Shown here: positions 43,069 through 55,962 of the stretch, in pieces
Numbering within the stretch: position 1 is the first letter of the stretch
Layout: every line of letters begins with the position of its first letter
From: Hymenobacter edaphi
GTDB taxonomy: Bacteria > Bacteroidota > Bacteroidia > Cytophagales > Hymenobacteraceae
Direction: 5' to 3'
DNA length: 64,000 nt
Assembly: GCF_003258365.1 (NCBI RefSeq)
Contig: NZ_QHKM01000011.1
Span: 1 to 64,000, forward strand
Translations under genes and position numbers: made by a program
Notes under the pieces: generated by a model
What the model was told of the DNA's origin: nothing
Seen by the model: the letters and a program-made list of their open reading frames with translations, nothing else
The model's database searches: none

Positions 43069-44514
43069 ATGACCGTCCCCAACTTCTACCAGCACGTCCA
43101 CCGCACCCTCGGCCAGCAGGCCGAGGCCGTGCTGCTGGAGTGGCCGGGCACGGGGCCGCAGGGCCGCACCGCCACCTACACCGGCCGCGACCTGGCCGGC
43201 CGCATCGGCGCCTACCAGCAGCTGCTCGGGCAGCGCGGCGTGGTGGCCGGCCAGCCGGTATTGCTACTGCTGCCGGTAGGCGTAGAGCTGATTTGCGGCT
43301 TGCTGGCGGTGATGAGCCTGGGCGCCGTGCCGGTGCTGCCGCCCGCCGGCGTATCGGCACGGGGGCTGCTGGCCCTGCGGCGGCGCGGCGGCATTCGGGC
43401 GGCGCTGGCCCCGGCTCGGCTGGCCCGGCGCTTTGGTTGGCTGACGCGTGGCTTGGGCCTGCGCCTGCTGGGTGCCCCGGCCGCCGAAGCCAATACGGTG
43501 CCGCTGGCCCCGCAGCCGGTAGCCGTCGAGTTGCCGGCGCTGGTGTCGCACAGCTCAGGCTCCACGGGCCGGCCCAAGGCCATTCGGCGCAGCCACCAGG
43601 TGCTCACGGCCCAGCACGAGGTGCTCAAGCAGGTGTTTCCGCCCTGGCCCGGGCAGCGCGATTTTCCGCTGTTTCCGAACGTGCTGCTCCACAACCTGGC
43701 CGTGGGCGCCGTCACGGTGCTGCCTGATGTGCCCTGGGCCCGCCTGAGCGGCTTCGACGCGGCCCGCGTGCTGGCGCAGCTGCGCGACACAGCCGTCGAA
43801 ACACTGACTGGCAACGTGTTTTATTTCAGCCGCCTGCTGACGCACTTGCGTCAGCAGCCTACGGCGCTGCCGGCCGTGCGCGCCGTGGGTGTGGGCGGCT
43901 CGCCGGTGCCCGAATGGCTGCTGCAAGGCCTGCAGGAGCAGCTGCCGCAGGCGGCCGTGTACGGCATCTACGGCTCCTCCGAAGCCGAGCCCATTGCCGT
44001 ACGCCGCTACGACACCGCCCGGCCGGCCGACCCGCGCCAGGGCTACTGCGTGGGGCCGGTGGTGGCCGGGCTGCAGTGCCGGCTGCAGGGCAACGGCGCC
44101 AGCGTTGAGCTGCCCGACGGCCGCCGCTTCGTGGTGGGCGAAATCACGGTGCAGGGCGCGCACGTGGCCGCCGAGCCCAATGCCTGGCTGCGCACCGGCG
44201 ACTTCGGCTACTTCGACGACGCGCAGTGCCTGTGGCTGACTGGCCGGCAGGGCAACGAGACGCTGCACCGCGGGGTGCAGCACTACCAGATTGAGCACGT
44301 GCTGCAGCAGCTGCCCGGCGTGGTGCGCGCCGCCGCCCGCGCCACGGCCACCGGCTTTGCCGTCTACGTGCAGGGGCCGGCCGAGCTGGAAGCGGTGCGG
44401 GCCGCGCTGGCGGCGCAGTTTCCTTCCGGTCTTTGCAAGCAGCTGCACCGCCGTACCGCGCTGCCCGTCGACGGCCGCCACCACTCCAAAATCCTCTACG
44501 ACCAACTGCGCTAA
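43069..44514 (+). CDS. Acyl-adenylate-forming enzyme, OleC-like (481 aa)
   Basis: ANL-superfamily enzyme. AMP-binding loop SHSSGSTGRPKA (160-171), YGSSEAEP (from 301), RTGDFGYFDD (from 375), hinge LTGRQGNE and the C-terminal LPVDGRHHSKILY with catalytic Lys474. The PVD-RHxSK ending and the D-GY-D-LW--GR pattern resemble OleC-type enzymes (acyl or beta-hydroxy-acid adenylation) rather than long-chain acyl-CoA synthetases. At 481 residues it is short for the family. First gene of a tight operon with a BtaA-like transferase and an APH-fold kinase. A CAGCTTTG element at 43038-43045 may be the -7 box. Confidence 0.85.
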   Translation: MTVPNFYQHVHRTLGQQAEAVLLEWPGTGPQGRTATYTGRDLAGRIGAYQQLLGQRGVVAGQPVLLLLPVGVELICGLLAVMSLGAVPVLPPAGVSARGLLALRRRGGIRAALAPARLARRFGWLTRGLGLRLLGAPAAEANTVPLAPQPVAVELPALVSHSSGSTGRPKAIRRSHQVLTAQHEVLKQVFPPWPGQRDFPLFPNVLLHNLAVGAVTVLPDVPWARLSGFDAARVLAQLRDTAVETLTGNVFYFSRLLTHLRQQPTALPAVRAVGVGGSPVPEWLLQGLQEQLPQAAVYGIYGSSEAEPIAVRRYDTARPADPRQGYCVGPVVAGLQCRLQGNGASVELPDGRRFVVGEITVQGAHVAAEPNAWLRTGDFGYFDDAQCLWLTGRQGNETLHRGVQHYQIEHVLQQLPGVVRAAARATATGFAVYVQGPAELEAVRAALAAQFPSGLCKQLHRRTALPVDGRHHSKILYDQLR

Positions 44515-44530
44515 GCGCCCCTACGCCGTG

Positions 44531-45661
44531 ATGCATTCCGAATTCTATAACGTCGCCCTCGACCGTCTGCGCTACTCGCTGGTGTGGGAAAGCCACCGCA
44601 CCCTGGCCACCGCGCTGGACGTGCAGCCCGCCGACGAGCTGCTGGTCATCTGCTCGGCCGGCTGCAACGCCCTCAACGCCCTGCTGCTCGGCGCCCGGCG
44701 CGTCACGGCCATTGACCTGAATCCGGTGCAGCTGCACCTGCTGGAGCTGAAGCGTTACCTGATCCGGCACCACGACCACCGGGTGCTGCGCGCCCTGCTC
44801 GGCCTCGACGGGCCGGCCGCCGTGCTACCCACCTGGCAGCAGCTGGAGCCCGCGCTGCCCCCGGCGCTGCGGGCCTACTGGGCGCCCTTTTTCGAAAGCC
44901 ACCCCGGCGGCATTTTGCCGGCCGGCAAGCTGGAAAGCTACCTGCTGGGCTTTCTGCCCACGCTCAGCCCGGCGCTGCAGCAGCGCGTGCGCCGCTTGGT
45001 CGAGTTCGACGACGTGGCCGCGCAGTACCGCTGGTTCCGCGAGCAGCTGCACGGCACCGCGTTCGAGGCGCAGTTCGTGGCGTATTTCGACGAAGCCAAC
45101 CTCAGCCGCGGGCGCGACCCGAAACTATTCAAGTACGCCGAGGAATCGGGCGGGCGGGCATTTTACCAGCGCCTCGCCGGGCAGCTCAGCACCGAGCTGG
45201 TGCGCGACAATTTCTTTTTCCGCTTCTTTTTTTTCGGCCCCGAAGGCCTGCCCGAAGCGGTGTTGCCGCCCTGCTACCAGGCCCGCCACCACGCCCGGCT
45301 GCGCGCCAGCCTCCACCGCCTGCGCACCGTGCAGGGCGAGGCCAGCGCCTACCTGCTCAGCGACGCCGGCCGGAGCATCAGCAAGGCCAGCCTTTCCAAC
45401 ATCTTCGAATACGTGAGCCCCGCCGACTTTGCCCAGGTGCGCGCGGCCCTGCTGGCCCGCCCCGCGGCGGCCCCGCTGCGCGCCGTGTACTGGAACCTGC
45501 TGCAGGCCCAGGGCGACGCCGCCCAACCAACCGACCTGGCCACGACCCCGGCCCGCACCCAACTGCCCGGCAGCTGCTTTTACTTCCGCGACGTGCGCGT
45601 GCTCGACGCCGCGCCCGCACCTTCCCTGCCCCTTTCTTCCCCCTCCCAAGCGTATGCATAG
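44531..45661 (+). CDS. BtaA-like (DUF3419) 3-amino-3-carboxypropyl transferase
   Basis: 376 residues. SAM-binding signature of BtaA/DUF3419: LLVICSAGCNALNALLLGA, followed by AIDLNPVQLHLLELK (Asp62, Asn64). Other blocks fit: FFESHPGGILPAGKLE, RDNFFFRFFF, PPCYQ and SLSNIFEYVSPADF. BtaA moves the aminocarboxypropyl group of S-adenosylmethionine to diacylglycerol in betaine-lipid synthesis. No BtaB-type methyltransferase is present here, so the product or acceptor may differ. Starts 16 bases after the ANL gene; its end overlaps the kinase gene by 8 bases, a sign of translational coupling. Confidence 0.9.
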   Translation: MHSEFYNVALDRLRYSLVWESHRTLATALDVQPADELLVICSAGCNALNALLLGARRVTAIDLNPVQLHLLELKRYLIRHHDHRVLRALLGLDGPAAVLPTWQQLEPALPPALRAYWAPFFESHPGGILPAGKLESYLLGFLPTLSPALQQRVRRLVEFDDVAAQYRWFREQLHGTAFEAQFVAYFDEANLSRGRDPKLFKYAEESGGRAFYQRLAGQLSTELVRDNFFFRFFFFGPEGLPEAVLPPCYQARHHARLRASLHRLRTVQGEASAYLLSDAGRSISKASLSNIFEYVSPADFAQVRAALLARPAAAPLRAVYWNLLQAQGDAAQPTDLATTPARTQLPGSCFYFRDVRVLDAAPAPSLPLSSPSQAYA

Positions 45662-46856
45662 CCCCGCCTATTACTGCGCGCGCCCCTTCGTGGAAGGCCT
45701 GATGCGCGCCCACGCCCCGCAGCGCCAGCTGCGCGTGCTCGACGTGCAGCCGCTGCCCGTCGACAGCTCCGCCAGCATCCTGGCCGTGCTCACGGCCGGG
45801 CAAACCAGCCGGCCGGTGGGTCACTTCGGCCTGCAGGTCACCTTCGAAATGGACGGGCAGCCGGCCCGTACCGAGCGGATGGTGCTCAAGCTCAAGCCGC
45901 CCGGCCACGAGGTATCGGCTATGCTGGCGGGACTGGCCCAAGCCTGTGGGGGCGAGCTGGCCCAGACGTACCCGGCTTTTGCCGCCCGCAGCGGCTTTCA
46001 CCACACCCACCACCGCGAGCTGGCACTCTACGCCCACCACGCCGATGCCGCGCTGATGCCGCGCATCTGGGGCCTGCACCAGGACGACGAAACCGCCGAG
46101 GTCTACGCCATCCTGATGGAATATCTCGGTGAGCAAGTGGAGCTGCTGAACACGGTGATGCAGCCCGAAGCCTGGACCGATGCCCACCTGCGCGCGGCCC
46201 TGGATGAGCTGGCCGCCTGGCACGCCCGGCACCTGCTGCCCGCCGGCACCGACGCCGCGCCCGTAACCTGGCCCGACCTGCCTTCGGCGGCCTATATGCA
46301 ACAGCTCACGCCGCTCTGGCAGGCCCTGCTCGCCAACGCCGCCCAGCACCACTCCGGCCTCTACGGCCCGGCGCGCGCCGAGCTGCTGCGCGAGGCCATT
46401 GCCCGCATCCCCGAGTACTGGGCCGAGCTGGCCGCCGCCCCGCGCACCCTGATTCACAACGACCTGAACCCGCGCAACACCTGCTTCCGCCGCGCCGCCG
46501 ATGGCCGCCTGCAGCTCTGCGCCTACGACTGGGAGCTGGCCACCTACCACGTGCCGCAGTACGACGTGGTGGAGCTGCTCAGCTTCGTGCTCGACGCCGA
46601 CCGCTACCACCTGCGCCCGCACTACCTGGAGTACTACCGCCAGCAGCTGCACGCCCGCACCGGCCGCTTCGCCGATGCCGAAGCCTTCCGCCGCGTAACC
46701 GGCCTGGCCGCCCTCGATTTCGGCCTGCACCGCCTGGGCATGTACCTAATGGCGCACGCCGTGGGCCCCTACCCCTACCTGCCGCGCGTGGTCGACAGCT
46801 ACTTCGACACGCTGGCCCAGCTGCAGCCCCTGCGCCCGGAGCCGGCCTACGCCTGA
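45654..46856 (+). CDS. APH/choline-kinase-fold phosphotransferase (400 aa)
   Basis: Protein-kinase-like small-molecule kinase. Brenner motif HNDLNPRN: His268, catalytic Asp270 and Asn275; metal-binding Asp292 in CAYDWELATYH (the DxD-like DWE). An N-lobe with ERMVLKLKPPG holds the ATP lysine. Start ATG at 45654 lies inside the 3' end of the DUF3419 gene. The closest folds are aminoglycoside, choline and homoserine kinases. In this operon it may phosphorylate the homoserine-like head group or a precursor (inference). Confidence 0.88.
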   Translation: MHSPAYYCARPFVEGLMRAHAPQRQLRVLDVQPLPVDSSASILAVLTAGQTSRPVGHFGLQVTFEMDGQPARTERMVLKLKPPGHEVSAMLAGLAQACGGELAQTYPAFAARSGFHHTHHRELALYAHHADAALMPRIWGLHQDDETAEVYAILMEYLGEQVELLNTVMQPEAWTDAHLRAALDELAAWHARHLLPAGTDAAPVTWPDLPSAAYMQQLTPLWQALLANAAQHHSGLYGPARAELLREAIARIPEYWAELAAAPRTLIHNDLNPRNTCFRRAADGRLQLCAYDWELATYHVPQYDVVELLSFVLDADRYHLRPHYLEYYRQQLHARTGRFADAEAFRRVTGLAALDFGLHRLGMYLMAHAVGPYPYLPRVVDSYFDTLAQLQPLRPEPAYA

Positions 46857-47119: not shown

Positions 47120-48022
47120 CTATACCGCCTGATGCGGTCCTGCTGCTTGCGCAGCCGCCAGCCGTGTGGCCTCGGCCCGCAGGTTCTCCACCACCACCGA
47201 CCGCTCGTCCCGCCGGCAGGTCAGGTACACGGTCGAGTGGTGGGGCAGCGGCAGGTAGCGCAGCCCGGGCGTCGGGCTGTCGGCGTAGGACATGGGCAGC
47301 ACGGCCACACCCAGGCCGGCCGCCACCAGGCTGAGGATGGTGGCGCCAAAATCGGAGGTGATGGTGCGGCGGGGCTGGTAGCCGTAGCCCTCAAACATCC
47401 GGCGCAGGGCCTGGGCATAGGCCCCCTCGTCGCTGAGCGAAGGCAGGATAAACCGCTCGTCGCGCAGCGCGGCCAGGGAGGTGAACGTGTCGGCCCGCAC
47501 CGGGTGCGCGGCGGGCACGGCCAGGGCCAGCGGCTCATCGAAGATGGGCACCGACACCAGCGCCGGGTTGCGGGCGGGCTCGCGCCAGAAGCCCACGTCG
47601 AGCTGGTAGGTGAGCAGCTGCGCCTGCGAGTCGGCGGCCCCGATTTCGCGCAGCTCCAGCTGCACCAGCGGGTAGCGGGCCGTGAAGCCGGCCAGCAGCC
47701 GCGGCAGCCAGGCATAGGCCACCGAGCCCACGTGGCCCAGCCGCAGGCTGCCCACTTCGCCGGCGCTGACCTGCCGGGCGTGGCGCTGCACGGCTTCCAG
47801 CTCGGCGAGCAGGCGCGCCCACTCGGTTTGCAGCAGCTCGCCGGCGGCCGTCAGGCGCACGGTGCGCTGCCGGCGCTCAAACAACGCAAAGCCCAGCTCC
47901 TGCTCCAGGCCCTGGATATGGCGGCTGAGCGAGGACTGCGTGAGGCCGAGCAGCTCGGCCGTCTGCCAGAAGTGCAGGCGCTCAGCCAGGCGCAGAAAGT
48001 AGCGAATGTGGTGCAGGTTCAT
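47120..48022 (-). CDS. LysR-family transcriptional regulator
   Basis: 300 residues from ATG 48022. N-terminal winged HTH: MNLHHIRYFLRLAERLHFW, then AELLGLTQSSLSRHIQGLEQELG and LFERRQRTVRLTAAG; effector-binding domain about 90-290 (LRLGHVGSVAYAWLPRLL, GLGVAVLPMSYA). Divergent from a GNAT gene at 48184, which is a candidate target. The likely operator is the inverted repeat at 48025-48039. Confidence 0.93.
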   Translation of the reverse strand: MNLHHIRYFLRLAERLHFWQTAELLGLTQSSLSRHIQGLEQELGFALFERRQRTVRLTAAGELLQTEWARLLAELEAVQRHARQVSAGEVGSLRLGHVGSVAYAWLPRLLAGFTARYPLVQLELREIGAADSQAQLLTYQLDVGFWREPARNPALVSVPIFDEPLALAVPAAHPVRADTFTSLAALRDERFILPSLSDEGAYAQALRRMFEGYGYQPRRTITSDFGATILSLVAAGLGVAVLPMSYADSPTPGLRYLPLPHHSTVYLTCRRDERSVVVENLRAEATRLAAAQAAGPHQAV

Positions 48023-48024
48023 CG

Positions 48025-48039
48025 ATGCAATAACTGCAT
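48025..48039. promoter_or_regulatory. LysR-type operator ATGCA-N5-TGCAT
   Basis: Perfect 5-bp arms (48025-48029 and 48035-48039), containing T-N11-A, immediately upstream of the LysR ATG. Confidence 0.6.
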
Positions 48040-48183
48040 GAATAGCGGCAACATCAGCATTGCTGCGCATCAAAGCAAGTCCTAGTTTTGCCCCGGTCAC
48101 CCACCATTTGTCTATCAGCTGCCCGGCATCCTGCAGGCCCCAGGCCCAGCCGCTGCGCAGATTCCCCCCCTTTTTCGCCCGCC

Positions 48184-48633
48184 ATGCTGCACCTCCTCCG
48201 CACCGACTCCGACCACCCCGATTTCCGCGCCCTGGTGCGCTTGCTCGACCAGGACCTGCAGGTGCGCGACGGCGCCGAGCACTCGTTCTACGCCCAGTTC
48301 AACAAAGTCGACACCATCCGGCACGTAGTAGTGGCCTACCTCGACGACGCGCCCGTGGGCTGCGGCGCCTTCAAGCCCTACGACGAGGCCGCGGTGGAAA
48401 TCAAGCGCATGTTTGTGCAGCCCGCACACCGCGGCCGTGGCGTGGCCCGGGCCGTGCTGGCCGAGCTGGAAGGCTGGGCGCGGGAGCTGGGCTACGCCGG
48501 CTGCGTGCTCGAAACCGGCAAAAAGCAGCCCGAAGCCATCCGCCTTTACCAGCAAAGCGGCTACCAGCTCGTGCCGAACTACGGCCAGTACATCGGCATC
48601 GACAACAGCGTGTGCATGCAGAAGGCCGTGTAG
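48184..48633 (+). CDS. GNAT acetyltransferase (149 aa)
   Basis: Complete GNAT fold: PVGCGAFKPYDEAAVEIKRMFV then the acetyl-CoA loop PAHRGRGVARAVL (QxxGxG/A form; about residues 80-92) and LETGKKQPEAIRLYQQSGY. The end YGQYIGIDNSVCMQK is seen in a common subgroup of small-molecule N-acetyltransferases. Substrate unknown. ATG at 48184. It may be controlled by the divergent LysR protein. Confidence 0.9.
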   Translation: MLHLLRTDSDHPDFRALVRLLDQDLQVRDGAEHSFYAQFNKVDTIRHVVVAYLDDAPVGCGAFKPYDEAAVEIKRMFVQPAHRGRGVARAVLAELEGWARELGYAGCVLETGKKQPEAIRLYQQSGYQLVPNYGQYIGIDNSVCMQKAV

Positions 48634-48716: not shown

Positions 48717-49784
48717 TTACAGCTCCTGGCCAAACAGCGCGTAATGGGCGGTTTCGGCGGGCAGGCCGTCGGTGAAGTGCAGAGAAAAGTTGCCGGTGCG
48801 CATCAGGCAGAAGACGACGTCATCGTACCGCTCGCGGAAGTGCACCATGCCGTAGGCGCCCAGGTACGACATCAGCCCGCGCTGGCGGTAGTCGGGGTGC
48901 ACGCCCACGGTTTTGGCCAGCAGCTGCCGGCGCTGCAGCCGCGCGAAGTCCCGCTCGAACACCGGCGGGCGGTTGTCGGGCAGGTGCAGCTCGGTGTAGT
49001 TGGGGTGGCAGAAGCTGAGCGCGGCCAGCGCGCCCGTGGCCTGGTCGCGGAAAAGCACCGAGGTATGCGGGCACAGCTTGGCGGCGTACTGCGGGTTGTA
49101 GAGCAGCCGAAACTGCGCCAGCGACACCGGCCGGTAGCCGGGGTTGGCGCCGAAAATAGCCTGCACCAGCTCGAAAATGGCCGTTTCGTGCTCCTGCCAG
49201 CTGTGCTCGTTGAGCGGAATAAAGTCGAAGGGAATCCGGGCCAGCTCGCGCAGCAGCATGTCTTTTTCGGTGAAGACGGCGGGCACGTCCTGGGGCCGGA
49301 TGCGGCGGCTCTCGAAGGTCGTGACGGGTACCAGGCCCAGGCCGGCCAGCAGCGCGGGGTAGTACTCGGGGTTGATGGGTTCCCGGTCGAACTGCCCCCA
49401 GCTGGGCGCGGGCGGCAGCCGCAGGCGGTAGCGGTGAAACGTATTGAAATCCAACGGCCCGACGAGGCGCCGCCGGCCGCGCTGCCGGGCATCGGCGCGT
49501 AGCGCGTCGAAAGCGACTTGGTTGCGCGCGGGGTCGTTGGTGCTTTCCCAAAAGCCGAAAAAGGCCTCGTCCGAGTCGTGGGGAAAGATGCCGACCAGCC
49601 GGAGCGTAGCCTCGTCGGTGTAGATAATCAGCTCGTTGCGTTCGGCTTCCTGGGCGAATAGCTGTTCCGTCAGAATGCGGTTTTCGGTGGGGTGCCAGGG
49701 CTGATCGGCGTACACGCGGGCCGGTACCGCCCAGAAGGCGTCGGGCAGCTGACCGTGGTAAGGAAGGCGGTGCAAAGGAGTCAT
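48717..49784 (-). CDS. GNAT-superfamily protein (355 aa)
   Basis: Start ATG 49784. It resembles long GNAT-like proteins of Bacteroidota: the N-terminal half with WHPTENRILTEQLF, FGFWESTNDP, RRRLVGPLDFNTFHRYRL, and a C-terminal half with the loop TVGVHPDYRQRGLMSYLGAY and VFCLMRTGNFSLHF. Substrate unknown; relatives often sit beside lipid or natural-product genes. It is third in a minus-strand set after a UbiA protein and a dikinase, separated from the latter by 183 bases with an inverted repeat. Confidence 0.75.
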   Translation of the reverse strand: MTPLHRLPYHGQLPDAFWAVPARVYADQPWHPTENRILTEQLFAQEAERNELIIYTDEATLRLVGIFPHDSDEAFFGFWESTNDPARNQVAFDALRADARQRGRRRLVGPLDFNTFHRYRLRLPPAPSWGQFDREPINPEYYPALLAGLGLVPVTTFESRRIRPQDVPAVFTEKDMLLRELARIPFDFIPLNEHSWQEHETAIFELVQAIFGANPGYRPVSLAQFRLLYNPQYAAKLCPHTSVLFRDQATGALAALSFCHPNYTELHLPDNRPPVFERDFARLQRRQLLAKTVGVHPDYRQRGLMSYLGAYGMVHFRERYDDVVFCLMRTGNFSLHFTDGLPAETAHYALFGQEL

Positions 49785-49967: not shown

Positions 49968-52601
49968 CTACGTCGCCTGCGGCTCCTGACCCGGCGCCAG
50001 CCCGGCCCGCTCAGCCAGCAGTTCGATTTCGCCGGTGGCGCCGTCCATGCGCGCCTGCTGGCCGCTTTGCAGGCGCCGCGTGAGGCCGGGCACGTTGATG
50101 ATGGTGGGAATGCCCAGCTCGCGCAGCAGAATGACCGAGTGCGAGAGCGAAGAGCCTTTTTCGATGATGACGCCGCGGCACACCGGAAACAGGGCGGCCC
50201 AGCCCGGGTCGGTGCGCAGGGCGCACACGATTTTGCCGGCCACGGCCAGGTCGTCGTCGGGGCTGGTGACGACGATGATTTCGCCCGCGAGCTGGCCGGG
50301 GTAGCAGCCGGTGCCGCGCAGGGCGCCTTCATCTTCGGCGGTGGATGCGGCGGCCAGCGGCGGCGCGGGCACCGTCACGCGGCTGGGCGCGTGCTGATGG
50401 GCGTAGCGGGCAAACTCCTGCTGCCGCTCGGCCACCAGCGGCGGCAGCACCTGCCCGGCTTCGGCCGCCGTTTCGCCGGTCAGCCGGCGGGCGGCCGCTT
50501 CGATTTCGGCTTCCGTCAGGTAAAACACGTCGCGCGGGGCGGCCAGCTGCCCGGCCGCCACCAGCTGCGCGCCCAGGGCCAGGTACAGCCCGCGGTACAT
50601 GCCAAACAGCCGGGTGCGCTCCAGCCGCAGCGACTCGCGGTGGGCAATGGCGCGCTGCAGCTGCCCCAGCCGCTGCCGCAGCTGGCGCCGCTGCCACGCC
50701 CCCCGGCCCCGCAGCAGCGCCTCGACTTCGGCCTCGGCCCCGCGCAGCACGGCGTTGTCAGCAGCCCCGAACTCGGCGGGTGCGGGCCCGACGAGGAAGT
50801 TGCGCAGGTACTGGTAGAAAATCTGGGGGCGGGTGCGCATGGTCTGGGTTTCGAGCTTCAGCTCCCCCACCGTCCGGTCGCCAAACTGCGCGATGAACGC
50901 GGCCACTTCGGCGGCAAAGGCGGGGAACTGCGCCTGTACCTGCGCGGGCAAGTCGTCGGGCTGCGCCACGACGAGCTGGCGCAGCGCATCCAGCGGGCGC
51001 ACCTGGGCGGCCAGGGCCAGCAGGCGGCGGGTGGGCTGGGTGCTGGCCAGGTCCTGGTCGCCGGCGAGGTAGCGGCGCAGCAGCTCCTCGGGCTCCGGGG
51101 CGCCCAGCTGCCGCAGCTGGCGCAAGGCGCGGCCGTTGGTCATCATCACGTAGAAGTCGTTGACGATGGGCGTGGTCCACTGGCCCAGCAGCTCCTGGTC
51201 GAGGCGGGCTTTTTCGGCCAGCAGCTCGGCCGGGCTCAGCGCCGAGAGCGGCCGGGCGTAGAAGCGCTGGTAATGCCCGGCGAAGTGGGCGTGGAAGCGG
51301 CGCACCGATCCGTCGAGGCGGGCAAAGGCCAGCAGCAGGCGCGCGAGGTTCAGCAGCAGGCGCGGCGCCAGGCGCAGCTTATCGGCCAGGGTTTTCTCGC
51401 GGGTCTGCACGAAGTCGACGGGCTCTTCCAGGCCCATCATGCGCTCCATGTCGTCCTTGTTTTGCCGGAAGGCGGGCAGCAGCTGCAGGCCGCGGTACCA
51501 GTTGTTGATGTTGTAGTAGATGCGGCCCTGCACGAGGCCCAGCAGGTTGGTCACCACCGGCTCCTGGGCCGCAATCTGGGCGGCGGGCAGGCCCAGCGCG
51601 TGCATGGTCTGGCGGTACACGGTGGCGTAGGCGCGGCGGGCGAAGCTAAAGGTCAGCGGCGTGGTGACGCCGCAGTAGCTTTCCTGGATATTGCTGTTGT
51701 CGTACACGACGACCTCCGGAATGGGCTGGGTGACGGGCCGGGCCTGCACCACCCACACCGCCCCGGCCGCGTCGACCACGAATTCCACGTCCTGCGGGCC
51801 GCCGAAAGCCGCTTCCAGCCGCTGGCCGATATCGAATAGCTCGGTGAGCTGGGCCGCACGCAGGCAGGGCGCGGTTTGCCGCCCGGCCTCGACGGCCTGC
51901 GCGGCGAGGCCGCCCGCGGGCCGGGCCACCAGCTGCTCATCCTTCGGGGCAATGAGCTGTCGATGCAGCTGGCCGGTTTTCTTCTCGAAGTAAAACTCAT
52001 CGGGCTGCAGCTGCCCGCCGACGAGCCCCTCACCAAAACCCCAGACGGCGTGGAGGGCCAGCTCCTGCGGGTACTCGGGGAAGGTCGTGAACATGACGCC
52101 GCTGGCCACGGGCGTAATCTGCCGCTGCACGATGACGGCCGGCCGGGCCGCGAGTTTCAGCCCCTTCTGCCGGCGGTAGGCCAGGGCCCGCTCGGAGTAA
52201 GCCGAGGCGGCGCAGCGGGCCACGGCGTCCAGCACCGTTGCTTCCGAGCTCAGGTTCAGAAACGAATCCATCAGCCCGGCGAAGGCCGCGTGCTGCCCGT
52301 CTTCGTCGGCCACGGAGGAGCGCACCACCACCGGCTGCGCGGGGAAATTCCAGCCGTACAGCACGTTGCGGAGCAGGGCCAGCAGCGTTTCGGGCAGCTC
52401 AAATGCCGTCAGTTGCTGCCGGCGGGCGGTTAGCTCCGCGTCGGTGGCGTCCGGGGCCGCCGGCAGCAGGTCGAATTCTTCGGCGGGGATGACCACGAAA
52501 TCGGGCACGCGCAGGCCGGCCGCCTGCAGGCGCCGCAGCCCGGCCGCCTTGCCGCCGATGGTGTAATCCGGCCCCGCCGGTTTGTGGATGGCAAGAACCA
52601 T
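49968..52601 (-). CDS. Rifampin-phosphotransferase-like dikinase (877 aa)
   Basis: N-terminal ATP-grasp of the PEP-synthase/PPDK type (about 1-310): IGGKAAGLRRLQAAGLRVP, VVVRSSVADEDG, VWGFGEGLVGG, and VEFVVDAAGAVWVVQARPV. The middle (about 320-760) is alpha-helical and variable. The C-terminal phosphohistidine domain has IIEKGSSLSHSVILLRELG with His821. The PEP-binding barrel of true PEP synthase is missing. This three-part order and length match rifampin phosphotransferases (about 867 aa), which use ATP to phosphorylate a small molecule. The real acceptor is unknown. ATG at 52601 lies four bases after the UbiA stop. Confidence 0.82.
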   Translation of the reverse strand: MVLAIHKPAGPDYTIGGKAAGLRRLQAAGLRVPDFVVIPAEEFDLLPAAPDATDAELTARRQQLTAFELPETLLALLRNVLYGWNFPAQPVVVRSSVADEDGQHAAFAGLMDSFLNLSSEATVLDAVARCAASAYSERALAYRRQKGLKLAARPAVIVQRQITPVASGVMFTTFPEYPQELALHAVWGFGEGLVGGQLQPDEFYFEKKTGQLHRQLIAPKDEQLVARPAGGLAAQAVEAGRQTAPCLRAAQLTELFDIGQRLEAAFGGPQDVEFVVDAAGAVWVVQARPVTQPIPEVVVYDNSNIQESYCGVTTPLTFSFARRAYATVYRQTMHALGLPAAQIAAQEPVVTNLLGLVQGRIYYNINNWYRGLQLLPAFRQNKDDMERMMGLEEPVDFVQTREKTLADKLRLAPRLLLNLARLLLAFARLDGSVRRFHAHFAGHYQRFYARPLSALSPAELLAEKARLDQELLGQWTTPIVNDFYVMMTNGRALRQLRQLGAPEPEELLRRYLAGDQDLASTQPTRRLLALAAQVRPLDALRQLVVAQPDDLPAQVQAQFPAFAAEVAAFIAQFGDRTVGELKLETQTMRTRPQIFYQYLRNFLVGPAPAEFGAADNAVLRGAEAEVEALLRGRGAWQRRQLRQRLGQLQRAIAHRESLRLERTRLFGMYRGLYLALGAQLVAAGQLAAPRDVFYLTEAEIEAAARRLTGETAAEAGQVLPPLVAERQQEFARYAHQHAPSRVTVPAPPLAAASTAEDEGALRGTGCYPGQLAGEIIVVTSPDDDLAVAGKIVCALRTDPGWAALFPVCRGVIIEKGSSLSHSVILLRELGIPTIINVPGLTRRLQSGQQARMDGATGEIELLAERAGLAPGQEPQAT

Positions 52602-52605
52602 GAGC

Positions 52606-53511
52606 TTAGCGCACCTGCGCAACGATTTCCACGATGATGGCCACGTAGCTGGTGAGCATAAACAGCGACACCAGCAGCTCGGCCACTTTCAGCGGCCGGG
52701 CCGCGGGGCGGCGCCAGCTCAGCCCGTAGGCCGCCGCAGTAGCCGCAAACAAAGCCGCCATCAGCCCGAACGGCCAGCTGCGGGCGTGCAGCAGCCGCAG
52801 CAGGTAGCCCTGCACCACCGTGCCGGCCAGCAGCACCAGCAGCACCGCCGCCATGGCGCCGGCGTAGCCCAGGGTGCGCGAGTAGGAGTCGACGCCGGGC
52901 CGCTCGGCGGGGGCGGGCTTGATTTTGCGGGCAATTTCAAAGGCCAGCCCGCCGAGCAGACTCAGCAGCCCGAGCAGCAGCAAGGGCAGCGTGAGCAGCG
53001 GCCGGGCGGCGTAGGCAGCCCACACCCAGCCGATGATCAGCGGCATGATGAGCAGGTGCGTGAGGGCGTAGAGCACCAGCCGGGCCCGCAGCCATTGCGG
53101 GGCAAAAAACTCGTAGCGCATCAGCAGGCTGTAGCCCACGGCCAGCAACCAGGCCAGCACCGTGCCCGGCCCAAGCCACAGCGACCAGGCCGCTTCGAGC
53201 AGCAGCCCGGCCCCGGCCAGCCGCCGCAGCTGCCCCAGCGTCACGCGGCCCGACTGCAGCACCCGCTCGGGAAAATTGACGGCATCGGCGGCGTAGTCCT
53301 TGATTTCGTCGAAGACGCGCAGGCGGAAGAAAAAGGAAATGACGGCCACTATGCCCAGCGCCTCGCGGGCGCCGAACCCGGCCAGCGCCGCGGCGGCCGG
53401 CTGGGTGGCCCGCGCCACGGCGTACACCGTCAGAAACAGGATGGCAAACAGGGCCATGTTGACCGGCGGAAACCGCTCCTGCAGGTAGGCCCACAACGCT
53501 CGACTTTTCAT
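52606..53511 (-). CDS. UbiA-family membrane prenyltransferase
   Basis: 301 residues with eight to nine helices. First Asp-rich motif in FRLRVFDEIKDYAADAVNF (D-x3-D-x3-D form) and a second in ERPGVDSYSRTLGYAG. UbiA enzymes attach prenyl chains to aromatic or other acceptors in the membrane. It is co-transcribed with the dikinase, so its product or substrate may be phosphorylated. ATG at 53511, four bases after a -7-like box. Confidence 0.82.
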   Translation of the reverse strand: MKSRALWAYLQERFPPVNMALFAILFLTVYAVARATQPAAAALAGFGAREALGIVAVISFFFRLRVFDEIKDYAADAVNFPERVLQSGRVTLGQLRRLAGAGLLLEAAWSLWLGPGTVLAWLLAVGYSLLMRYEFFAPQWLRARLVLYALTHLLIMPLIIGWVWAAYAARPLLTLPLLLLGLLSLLGGLAFEIARKIKPAPAERPGVDSYSRTLGYAGAMAAVLLVLLAGTVVQGYLLRLLHARSWPFGLMAALFAATAAAYGLSWRRPAARPLKVAELLVSLFMLTSYVAIIVEIVAQVR

Positions 53512-53523: not shown

Positions 53524-53721
53524 GCTTCTGCGGACCACCGCACCGCCCAATGCCGCGCCGGATCCGACTTTATTGCACGGCGGATCGGGCCAATAAAGCC
53601 GCCGTAGTGCCGCCTGCGGGGCTGATTGGCGCATCGACCCGGGCAGCGGCCTGACTTTAGCAATTCGGCGCTGCTTGGTCTGGCAGCACCCAAAGCTGCC
53701 CCCGGCGCGCTACTTTACCGC

Positions 53722-55962
53722 ATGATTGAAGGAGTATACCGCTTCCGGTACTGGCTGCTGGGCCTGTTAGTGGCTCTGGGCGCGGCGCTCTGGCCCGGCG
53801 TGCGCGCCGCCGTGCAGGTCGACAACAGCCTGGAAGCCTGGTTTCTGCAAAACGACCCGAGCCTGCGCGCCTACCGCGACTTCCAAGGGCGCTTCGGCAA
53901 CGACGAAGTGGTCATCGTGGTGGTGCACGACGAGGCCCAGCCGCTGCTGACGCCCGCGTACTTCCGGCGGTTCCGGGCCCTGAGCCAGGCGCTGGAAGGG
54001 CTGCCGGGCGTGGCGGCCGTCATCGGGCCCGGCAACGCGCTGGTGCCCGGCCGCACCGGGCCGCAGCCGCTGCTGCCGCCCGCGGCCCGGCCCGCCCAGG
54101 TGCACCGCACGCTGGCCGCGCACCCCGTGCTGCAGGAGCAGCTGTTTTCGCCCGACCTGCGCACGGCCCGCTTCGTGGTGGTGCTGCGCCGGCTGCCCGG
54201 CTTCGACGAGCGGCGCGGCGCCATTCTGGAGGAGGTGACGCGCACGGTGTACCGGCACGTGCCCCGCGAGCGGGCGTATCTGGGCGGCGTGGGCATCATC
54301 TTCGCCGGGCTGAATGCCCTCTCGCAGCACGACTTCGGGCTGTTTCTGGGCCTGGGCTACGCGCTGATGTTCGGCGTCTTTCTGCTGCTGTACCGCAACG
54401 GCTGGCTGCTGGTGTACGTGCTCGGCATCGTGGGCGGGGCCACCTACCTGACGCTGGGCGTGTACGGGCTGCTGGGCCACCGGCTGAACCTGATGACGGT
54501 GCTGCTGCCGGTGGTGCTCATCCTGCTTGGCATCATGGACGCCATGCACGTCATCAACGAGCGAAACCTGCTGGCCGCGCCCGGCCTGCCGCCGCGCGCT
54601 TCGGCCCTGCAGGCGCTGCAGCGCACGTTTTCGCCCTGCCTGGCCACCATGCTCACCACCGTGGCCGGCTTTCTGGCTTTGGTCACCAGCCCGATGGCCA
54701 TTCTGCGCAACTTCGGCTTGTTCGCGGCCCTCGGCATTGCCCTGTGCCTGGTGCTGACCTTCGTGCTCGGCGCCCTCATTCTGCCCCTCACCACGCCCGC
54801 GCCCCGGGCCACGCGCTCCACCAGCCGCGGCCTGGCCCGCTTCTACGCCTACCTGCTGGCCCGCCGCGGCCGGTTCACCGCCGTAGCGGCCGCGCTTACG
54901 CTGCTGGCGGTGGCGGGCATCTTCCTGATCAAAGCCGACACCTACACGCTCGGCTATTTCCCCCAGGACCACCCGGTGGTGCAGGACCACCGCCGCATGG
55001 AAGCCACCTGGGGCCCCTACCTGCCGCTGGAGCTGCTGGTGGAGCCCCGCCCCGGCCACCGGCTCCACGACGCGGCCGTGGTGCAGGCCGCGGCCGCCTT
55101 TGCCGATTCGGTGCGGCAGCTGCCGGGCGTGGGGCGGGTATTCGGCTTTCACTCGCTCTACCAGGCCGGGCTGGAAACGCAGTTTCCCGGCCGCGGCCGC
55201 CGGGCCCTGGGCAGCCAGAGCCTGCTCAACGCCGTGGACCGCCGGCTCGCGGCCGATTACCCGCAGCTGGCGGCCGAGTTTATTCACCGCGCCAGCGGCA
55301 CCGGGCGCATCACCGTGGCGGGCCGGATGCTGTCGGCGCGGCAGCTCACGGCCAAAACCGACACGCTGCTGCGCCTGGCCGCCCGCACCTTCGGGCCGGT
55401 AGCGCGGGTGCGCCCGGCCGGCTACCAGCCCATGTACGCCCGCATCACCGAGTACGTGACGACCTCGCAGACCCAGAGCCTGCTGCTCTCCATCGTCACC
55501 GTGTTCGGGCTGGTGTGGCTGTACGTGCGCAGCCTGCGCCTGGCCCTGCTCACGGTGCTGCCGAACCTGTTTCCGGTACTAGTGCTGCTGGGCTTGATGG
55601 GCTGGTGCGGTATCCGGCTCGATACGGCCACGGCCAGCATTGCCGCCATCGTGCTCGGCCTCTGCGTCGACGACACGGTGCACTACATCCACCACTACCG
55701 CGAGGCCCGGCGCAGCATGACGCCCTCGGCGGCGCGGCTGGCCACCATCACCCACGTCGGGCCCACCATCGTGCTCACCAGCCTGATTCTGTTCGTGGGC
55801 TACGCCGTGATGGGCCTGGGCTCGTTGAAGACGGTGCAGCTGTTCGGGGTGCTCACGGCCGCCAGCATTGCCGCCGCGCTGTTCGGCGAAATCGTGATTT
55901 TCCCGCTGGTGCTGGCGCGCTTCGACCGGGAGCCGGCGCCGAAGGCAGCGCCCGCCCCTTGA
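53722..55962 (+). CDS. RND/MMPL-family exporter (746 aa)
   Basis: Two RND-type halves. Each half has one helix, a large periplasmic loop and five helices (helix 1 about 8-30; loop about 31-205; helices from about 207 including LLPVVLILLGIMDAMHVINE; second half from about 395 with LVLIL-type helices and IAAIVLGLCVDDTVHYIHHY). The conserved acidic residues in these helices fit proton-coupled transport. Members export lipids, hopanoids or siderophores; the cargo is unknown. It needs no outer-membrane partner here. A TACTTTAC element at 53711-53718 sits three bases before the ATG. Confidence 0.88.
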   Translation: MIEGVYRFRYWLLGLLVALGAALWPGVRAAVQVDNSLEAWFLQNDPSLRAYRDFQGRFGNDEVVIVVVHDEAQPLLTPAYFRRFRALSQALEGLPGVAAVIGPGNALVPGRTGPQPLLPPAARPAQVHRTLAAHPVLQEQLFSPDLRTARFVVVLRRLPGFDERRGAILEEVTRTVYRHVPRERAYLGGVGIIFAGLNALSQHDFGLFLGLGYALMFGVFLLLYRNGWLLVYVLGIVGGATYLTLGVYGLLGHRLNLMTVLLPVVLILLGIMDAMHVINERNLLAAPGLPPRASALQALQRTFSPCLATMLTTVAGFLALVTSPMAILRNFGLFAALGIALCLVLTFVLGALILPLTTPAPRATRSTSRGLARFYAYLLARRGRFTAVAAALTLLAVAGIFLIKADTYTLGYFPQDHPVVQDHRRMEATWGPYLPLELLVEPRPGHRLHDAAVVQAAAAFADSVRQLPGVGRVFGFHSLYQAGLETQFPGRGRRALGSQSLLNAVDRRLAADYPQLAAEFIHRASGTGRITVAGRMLSARQLTAKTDTLLRLAARTFGPVARVRPAGYQPMYARITEYVTTSQTQSLLLSIVTVFGLVWLYVRSLRLALLTVLPNLFPVLVLLGLMGWCGIRLDTATASIAAIVLGLCVDDTVHYIHHYREARRSMTPSAARLATITHVGPTIVLTSLILFVGYAVMGLGSLKTVQLFGVLTAASIAAALFGEIVIFPLVLARFDREPAPKAAPAP

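Follow-up and report, generated by a model that had tools for sequence, protein, structure and literature searches.

What does a relative of the betaine lipid enzyme BtaA make when it adjoins a ligase and a kinase in a genome with no detectable BtaB? The question is raised by a 64,000-nucleotide stretch of Hymenobacter edaphi DNA (RefSeq assembly GCF_003258365.1, contig NZ_QHKM01000011.1, positions 1 to 64,000 of the forward strand; hereafter the window), in which the initial annotation, made from the letters alone, had described an operon of three genes: an OleC-like ligase (OLEC), a DUF3419-family relative of BtaA (BTAA) and an APH-fold kinase. The genes are real, and the view that a lipid product new to the annotator is to be expected from a BtaA relative with these two neighbours but no BtaB was upheld; the unit, however, had been drawn too small, since the conserved stretch reaches about position 55962 and includes a tandem GNAT, a PPDK-like enzyme, a UbiA-family protein and an MMPL exporter, all of which had been overlooked. 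We regard it as nearly certain that this locus represents one co-evolved pathway. Its best explanation, in our judgement about evenly balanced between being right and being wrong, is a modular pathway that makes and exports an amino-lipid with an isoprenoid part.

The coordinates of the three initial genes were reproduced in full (Table 1), as were the 16-nt gap between the first two (44515-44530) and the 8-nt overlap between the second and third (45654-45661), and all three domain assignments are borne out by Pfam matches above the family cut-offs (PF00501, PF11899 and PF01636). BTAA is the only DUF3419 match in its genome, and its closest named relative in a pattern-based scan, from Hymenobacter jeollabukensis, is 95% identical. 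Of the 98 genomes covered by the proposed survey of gene neighbourhoods, nine (counting H. edaphi) encode a close DUF3419 orthologue, and eight of these retain the order OLEC-BTAA-APH. Since, in addition, dN/dS relative to H. jeollabukensis is 0.06-0.22 in the six biosynthetic genes tested, the association of the three genes is not due to chance. The trio as a complete unit was rejected because the flanking genes co-vary with it.

This co-variation was assessed by a scan of one genome per species (84,980 species) with two short peptide patterns, and hence non-exhaustive, which yielded 233 stretches, 77 DUF3419 loci being kept. The taxa include Hymenobacter, Pontibacter, Fibrella, Pedobacter, Saprospiraceae, Flavobacteriales, Myxococcales, Asticcacaulis, UBP16 and Riflebacteria. 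A first tabulation of 97 loci (without L040, in which DUF3419 is fused to APH, and L019-L034) contained 70 with UbiA or PPDK: PPDK was present in all 70, UbiA in 65, GNAT in 64 and OLEC in 59, and the kinase was APH in 33 and DOLK, a dolichol-kinase-like membrane protein, in another 33, with no locus holding both and four holding neither. UbiA, PPDK, DUF3419, GNAT, OLEC and a kinase occur all together in 54 of the 97. More genomes and a plasmid brought the set to 121 loci: 84 of UbiA-PPDK type, 8 of Type D (see below), 9 with BtaA-BtaB, 6 of another kind and 14 other or partial. No two DUF3419 proteins in this set are at least 97% alike over more than 200 residues; it excludes L019-L034 (several of which are the same contigs as named loci), L134, L136 and L137, and loci at contig ends (e.g. 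L067, L068, L070, L073, L076, L143 and L148) are scored as lacking genes that could be situated past the contig end. L148, with DUF3419 and part of a phosphatidylserine decarboxylase (PSD), is counted as partial. The 84 UbiA-PPDK loci contain PPDK (84), UbiA (77), GNAT (78), OLEC (70), PSD (4), an MMPL gene within 12 kb of DUF3419 (30), HMG-CoA reductase (HMGR; 34) and fatty acyl reductase (FAR; 4). A kinase is present in 81 of them (DOLK in 43, APH in 35, DAGK_cat in 3, none in 3), and two are never found together, APH never accompanying DOLK or DAGK_cat; the three families that fill this one slot are unrelated.

The tabulated loci were found via DUF3419, which is thus present by construction, and a whole-genome profile check is fairer. 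Among 395 genomes of the phylum, UbiA was matched in 10 and DUF3419 in 45; all 10 UbiA genomes are among the 45, with both genes on one contig within about 7 kb (hypergeometric 1.4e-10, which ignores kinship; the two profiles were built from cluster members and are therefore biased to this subfamily). The 98 relatives tell the same story, with UbiA in nine and DUF3419 in all nine of these, and genome G052 retains DUF3419-APH with no UbiA match. The Hymenobacter ginkgonis locus (L054, 10001-12288) is decayed or reduced, with DUF3419 and APH left and no OLEC, GNAT, PPDK or UbiA nearby. Same-strand neighbours overlap or lie at most 20 nt apart in 289 of 387 pairs, a count in which overlaps are overstated because the gene finder picks the longest reading frame. 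A tblastn search of plasmids with the window DUF3419 protein returned two records. On a Roseinatronobacter plasmid, six consecutive genes are annotated in this order as UbiA, PEP/pyruvate-binding, DUF3419, 'hypothetical' (twice) and AMP-binding; the 'hypothetical' ones are DOLK and GNAT by profile, which makes a six-gene Type A set.

Four architectures were distinguished. Type B, that of the window, comprises OLEC-DUF3419-APH, GNAT-PPDK-UbiA and MMPL; Type A is mostly colinear (HMGR-UbiA-PPDK-DUF3419-DOLK-GNAT-OLEC, HMGR being sometimes absent); Type C (L128, L140 and L147, and L129 with DOLK) combines FAR, a kinase, UbiA, PPDK, GNAT, PSD and DUF3419. Type D, defined by a pyridoxal phosphate (PLP) decarboxylase, or by DAGK_cat with GNAT, without UbiA or PPDK, encodes DAGK_cat, DUF3419, GNAT, the PLP decarboxylase, a class II aldolase and a MacB-type permease with its ATPase (L115:3649-11870, L141-L146 and L149; L143 is truncated at the contig end). 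All four types repeatedly combine DUF3419 with GNAT and a kinase, and in Type D both partners are present in all eight loci. PSD is encoded in four of the 14 UbiA-PPDK loci that lack OLEC (1.4e-49 and 3.4e-46 by Pfam in the two tested), and all four PSD proteins have LG[GA]ST, which we take to be the self-cleavage motif; a PLP decarboxylase is present in seven of the eight Type D loci (L115 by Pfam, the others by profile). In the same tabulation FAR accompanies PSD in four of four cases, OLEC never occurs with PSD, and HMGR never with FAR. Three pairs of genes are also found as fused single frames: GNAT-OLEC (L097:12267-14732), DUF3419-APH (L040:9917-12337) and HMGR-APH (L083:13077-16151). In Type D the PLP enzyme is of the Orn/DAP/Arg decarboxylase type and the GNAT is a tandem one, and in L115 DUF3419 is fused to a PEMT-like domain.

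It is directly observed that these genes form a set and co-occur, that kinases and carboxylate-step enzymes are exchanged between loci, that some frames are fused, and that catalytic residues are conserved, by which the biosynthetic proteins look active. The following pathway would account for these observations. The DUF3419 enzyme would, like BtaA, move the 3-amino-3-carboxypropyl group of S-adenosylmethionine (SAM) to the hydroxyl of a lipid acceptor; the tandem GNAT would N-acylate the new amine, replacing N-methylation by BtaB; and the OleC-like ligase would activate the acyl group for GNAT. A lipid alcohol would be phosphorylated by the kinase, which is APH in the window and, in relatives, either a membrane protein resembling dolichol/DAG kinases or DAGK_cat; UbiA would attach a prenyl chain, the PPDK-type enzyme would give a second phosphoryl or activation step, and the MMPL protein would export the product. 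We put the chances that this chemistry is right in outline just short of even. An aminocarboxypropyl transferase would yield a product bearing an alpha-amino acid, and its being left on the lipid fits the two unrelated decarboxylase families of Types C and D, which would turn the aminocarboxypropyl into an aminopropyl group, as in the conversion of phosphatidylserine to phosphatidylethanolamine. The analogy lies in the PSD found next to or near DUF3419 in some relatives; in contrast to that route, the amino acid would be a SAM-derived aminocarboxypropyl ether and not serine, and the window locus has no decarboxylase. OLEC in Types A and B stands where Types C and D have the decarboxylase. More tentatively, and with somewhat more doubt than belief, we propose an undescribed family of modular lipid pathways whose core is a DUF3419 aminocarboxypropyl transferase together with a GNAT that acts as N-acyltransferase and a lipid kinase that can be exchanged. 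Interchangeable modules would set what becomes of the carboxylate (through a ligase, a pyruvoyl decarboxylase or a PLP decarboxylase), the kind of hydrophobic chain (through UbiA and PPDK with either HMG-CoA reductase or fatty acyl reductase) and the means of export (an MMPL protein or a MacB-type ABC system); in the window, the result would be a hybrid lipid with isoprenoid, homoserine-ether and N-acyl parts.

The first step is predicted from the DUF3419 sequence. BtaA is named an aminocarboxypropyl transferase in excerpts of PMC10491745, where the products and enzymes of SAM aminocarboxypropyl transfer include isonocardicin C, betaine lipid, discadenine, ACI, nicotianamine-type synthases and microcin C. 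Seventeen positions are conserved at 90% or more in both 69 UbiA-cluster and 11 BtaB-clade proteins, 15 of them also in a Sinorhizobium homologue, and the SAM-site residues common to BtaA are W19, E20, S42, G44, N46, D62 and N64 (protein numbering). These shared residues and the common family would also suit an ordinary betaine lipid route, in which DUF3419 makes diacylglyceryl homoserine, an unrelated methyltransferase completes diacylglyceryl trimethylhomoserine (DGTS) and the neighbours are incidental. A BtaB gene elsewhere, which the initial annotation had raised as the sign of such synthesis, was sought with a profile from six proteins that scores 249-317 bits in five of five genomes with a BtaA-BtaB operon (four of these supplied rows to the profile; the fifth, at 249 bits, did not). 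No BtaB orthologue was found in the window's genome by this profile, which gave just four weak matches there, the best at 38 bits; these mark further methyltransferases that such a route might recruit. The 18 genomes with a cluster-type DUF3419 (17 with UbiA) score at most 87 bits, and BtaB is present in none of the 70 UbiA/PPDK loci of the first tabulation, while the neighbours supposed to be incidental co-occur in 84 loci. A tree of 101 DUF3419 proteins was built by a quick method and rooted at its midpoint; some of its branches are long, and L028, identical copies and proteins shorter than 300 aa were excluded. Every one of the 10 BtaB-linked rows belongs to a single starred clade with 11 members, whereas the window protein lies outside it, in a separate starred clade with 32 members, 31 of which come from UbiA clusters. 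L25, E135 and D196, present in 91, 100 and 93% of the 69 cluster proteins, are replaced by near-fixed D, G and P in the BtaA clade (100, 91 and 100%, n=11). Plain betaine lipid synthesis was therefore rejected on the failure to find a BtaB orthologue, the distinct clade and the near-fixed residues, and we consider the route through an unrelated methyltransferase very improbable indeed. Compared with BtaA/BtaB, then, the window locus shares a DUF3419 aminocarboxypropyl transferase with conserved SAM-site residues but differs in having GNAT as the amine partner and in adding UbiA, PPDK, a kinase, a ligase and an exporter.

The occurrence of GNAT in the place of BtaB across the types suggests, by analogy, N-acylation. 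Acetyltransf_1 is matched in 24 of 45 members of this GNAT family (E at most 0.1, best 1.3e-9); the window protein itself (GNATL) matches only Acetyltransf_9 (E 0.022), its AlphaFold2 model (pLDDT 93) has tandem GNATs as nearest PDB chains (E 2e-11, TM 0.5-0.6), and hhalign (99.8%) shows that the family's two sequence groups are homologous to each other. Sequence searches, at the limits used, matched no solved structure to the DUF3419, GNAT or APH proteins. The proposed product resembles OlsB-type aminolipids in being an N-acylated amino-acid lipid. Aminolipid N-acyltransferases are described as sharing PF13444 in excerpts of PMC11631085, whereas PF13444 is absent from the 21 Pfam families matched by the 45 members (E at most 0.1). 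As to the ligase, 'OleC-like' holds for a relative of OleC but not for OleC proper: OLEC has the AMP-forming ligase family and motifs in common with OleC/PRK09274 and keeps the SGSTGxPK loop (K474 in 97% of 58 relatives; this count and the motif counts given below for the kinases, UbiA and PPDK omit short members and L019-L034), but its best NCBIfam match, PRK09274, scores 210 bits against a cut-off of 478, the two OleC equivalog models score 104.7 (cut-off 900) and 60.5 (cut-off 850), and it adjoins a GNAT. No OleA, OleB or OleD was recognised by eye in the 30 listed neighbour families; no dedicated search was made. OLEC likely activates a fatty acid, or else the aminocarboxypropyl carboxylate; the GNAT-OLEC fused frame suggests acyl activation for GNAT, and carboxylate adenylation also fits it.

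The APH kinase has HNDxNxRN and DWE in all 35 members, which we take to be the HxDxxxxN catalytic motif and metal-binding Asp of APH/EcKL kinases. DOLK shows an RKxxH and a DP..A..GK..K..G pattern, presumably that of dolichol/phytol kinases, with R37, K38, H41 and D128 in 100% of 29; CTP_transf_1 is matched in 6 of 24 members (E at most 0.1, best 5.2e-5), and the best PDB match of its model (pLDDT 94) is CDP-DAG synthetase (probability 0.98 but E 0.046). We read DOLK as a kinase and not a cytidylyltransferase because of this presumed signature and its exchange with APH and DAGK_cat. The DOLK proteins of L132, L133, L095 and L135 (439-461 aa) carry an additional half, roughly 220 aa long, that matches no family above its cut-off. 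In phytol use, VTE2 is the UbiA-type step that follows VTE5 and VTE6. Prenol salvage of this kind, in which the kinase and then PPDK would phosphorylate a prenyl alcohol to the diphosphate for UbiA while DUF3419 and GNAT modify the acceptor, draws on the DOLK pattern and the CTP_transf_1 matches, on the serial action of phytol kinase VTE5 and phytyl-phosphate kinase VTE6 (excerpts of PMC9782597) and on the HMGR-APH fused frame, which points to a tie between kinase and isoprenoid supply. The shared features are a dolichol-kinase-like kinase (in relatives) and a UbiA prenyltransferase; in contrast to the tocopherol pathway, no aromatic acceptor pathway was recognised. Type D retains DAGK_cat with DUF3419 and GNAT but without UbiA or PPDK, so that the kinase is not tied to UbiA and belongs with DUF3419 and GNAT, and the DUF3419-APH fused frame suggests the same. 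We think salvage unlikely and retain the amino-lipid pathway, with the kinase acting on the lipid alcohol.

UbiA has D68/D72/D76 and ExxRK in 100% of 59 proteins, and at E below 0.1 its only solved relatives are digeranylgeranylglyceryl phosphate (DGGGP) synthase (6m31, E 3.6e-10) and chlorophyll synthase (E 3.8e-8). The former, as best match, would suit an archaeal-type ether lipid, in which UbiA is a DGGGP synthase acting on geranylgeranylglyceryl phosphate (GGGP) and DUF3419 adds the head group to an archaeol-like core, and PcrB/GGGP synthase is indeed encoded in the window's genome. It is also present in cluster-free relatives, unmatched in 4 of 18 cluster genomes and sub-threshold in one, and chlorophyll synthase is nearly as good a match, which leaves this reading quite improbable. 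GGGP and DGGGP synthases in related phyla are treated in excerpts of PMC7852524, in which a locus of the window's type was not met. PPDK accompanies this UbiA everywhere in the 121-locus set. Its phospho-His, H828, is conserved in 98% of 62 proteins, and its nearest solved chain is 5fbs (E 3.3e-55). It shares PPDK_N and a phospho-His domain with catalytic His with PigC, RedH and rifampin phosphotransferase (RPH), whereas its scores lie far below the equivalog cut-offs (PRK06241.2-4, 731 bits against 1063; RPH, 260 against 999; PigC, 248 against 1300; 248-260 bits against cut-offs of 999-1350 for the PigC/RedH/RPH group as a whole). The window's genome has both HMG-CoA reductase and the methylerythritol phosphate (MEP) pathway enzyme DXR (C21:109749-110864; C39:353605-353988), as have all eight sampled genomes of the genus, its own included; no cluster genes were recognised by eye beside its HMGR, where no profile search was made.

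The MMPL protein is a probable lipid exporter, judging by its sequence. A rival reading is a secreted small-molecule natural product (antibiotic or signal) that is not a membrane lipid; the patchy distribution (9 close orthologues in 98 relatives), the plasmid-borne Type A set of Roseinatronobacter and the kinship of PPDK with prodigiosin ligases would all be in keeping with one. The membrane enzymes UbiA and DOLK, the RND-type exporters and the PSD of the variants point instead to a lipid, and no carrier-protein assembly line was recognised by eye in the 30 recurring neighbour families. A natural product thus appears distinctly improbable, and an exported amino-lipid remains our preferred reading.

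Several points weigh against this reading. Every reaction, the order of the steps and the product are inferred, and the PPDK role, be it a second phosphoryl transfer or a PigC-like condensation, is a guess. ExxRK of UbiA occupies the place of what we take to be the usual second Asp motif, so that the donor may differ. Type D, with DUF3419, GNAT and kinase yet no UbiA or PPDK in its eight loci, implies that the isoprenoid part is not universal, and the three UBP16 and Riflebacteria loci have no kinase, GNAT or OLEC nearby. In ten of the 14 loci that lack OLEC no decarboxylase is seen (several are cut by contig ends), and the window locus has OLEC and likewise no decarboxylase, which allows more than one fate for the carboxylate there. 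The tree speaks against a single origin of the cluster, since the UbiA-cluster label needs six changes on it, with L094, L099 and L101 apart; kinase exclusivity partly tracks the tree, and the loci are not independent evidence. Each fused frame was seen once, and assembly error is possible. Finally, two cluster-bearing Pontibacter genomes have DXR and no HMGR match, and GGGP synthase exceeds its cut-off in 13 of the 18 cluster-bearing genomes. As HMGR and GGGP synthase each have no match in some cluster genomes, there is no isoprenoid source or acceptor on which every locus must depend. The Pontibacter genomes (G018 and G030) led us to reject an obligatory supply by the mevalonate pathway, and the four genomes with no GGGP synthase match to reject GGGP as an obligatory UbiA acceptor.

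The pathway is real and widespread, and apparently undescribed; no description of a locus of this type was found in literature searches, some of them on related enzymes, that left most subscription journals and preprints outside their reach. If our reading is true, several bacterial phyla make isoprenoid-containing amino-lipids, which may have escaped notice behind gene annotations such as DUF3419, 'PEP/pyruvate-binding' and 'hypothetical', as in the Roseinatronobacter plasmid record. The functions of DUF3419 would then extend past betaine lipids, to head groups that are N-acylated or decarboxylated instead of N-methylated. 'Unidentified aminolipids' appear in taxonomic descriptions of such bacteria, and would become testable by single-gene deletion.

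Table 1. Genes of the locus in the window, in order of position
Feature	Coordinates	Strand	Basis or remark
OLEC, AMP-forming ligase (PRK09274/OleC kind), 481 aa	43069..44514	+	PF00501 96.2 bits
BTAA, DUF3419 family, 376 aa, ATG at 44531	44531..45661	+	PF11899 132.4 bits (cut-off 28.2)
APH/EcKL-fold kinase, 400 aa, ATG at 45654	45654..46856	+	PF01636 54.7 bits (cut-off 23.2); PF02958 28.6 bits
LysR regulator inside the locus	47120..48100	-	Position shared, among named UbiA-cluster loci, by L035, L036 and L046 alone
Single-domain GNAT beside LysR	48088..48633	+	Position shared by L035, L036 and L046 alone
GNATL, putative tandem-GNAT N-acyltransferase	48717..49778 (start taken at 49778; open frame to 49931)	-	Family profile and model
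PPDK, RPH/PigC-type phosphotransferase (PPDK_N and PEP-utilizers)	49968..52622	-	PF01326 203.8 bits; PF00391 61.5 bits
UbiA-family intramembrane prenyltransferase	52606..53511	-	PF01040 27.1 bits (below cut-off 34.2); member from L028 40.1
MMPL/RND-type exporter, divergent from UbiA	53626..55962	+	PF03176 97.3 bits

The LysR regulator and the single-domain GNAT between the two biosynthetic gene groups are lineage-specific and probably outside the pathway; L035, L036 and L046 are close Hymenobacter loci, and the single-domain GNAT has one additional profile match, upstream in L055. A scan of four upstream stretches for the Bacteroidota -7 motif found no site.

DUF3419 also occurs in clusters of other kinds. 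The six loci so counted above (L104:7121-11089, L091, L093, L098, L111 and L114) form a second cluster, whose families were tested in L104 and traced in the other five by profile: beside DUF3419 stand a GNAT (PF00583, 3e-8), an aldehyde-deformylating-oxygenase-like ferritin (TIGR04059, 2.6e-13, 50 bits, cut-off 223) and a long-chain acyl-acyl carrier protein (ACP) reductase-like protein (TIGR04058, 6.6e-45, 154 bits, cut-off 450), to which L093 and L111 add a fatty acid desaturase. From these family matches it looks like another lipid pathway. On the Rhizobium sp. plasmid pMK-2 (L136:3811-10149), DUF3419 lies beside a ketoacyl-ACP synthase III, an oxidoreductase, an MBL hydrolase and a 'CoF synthetase'.

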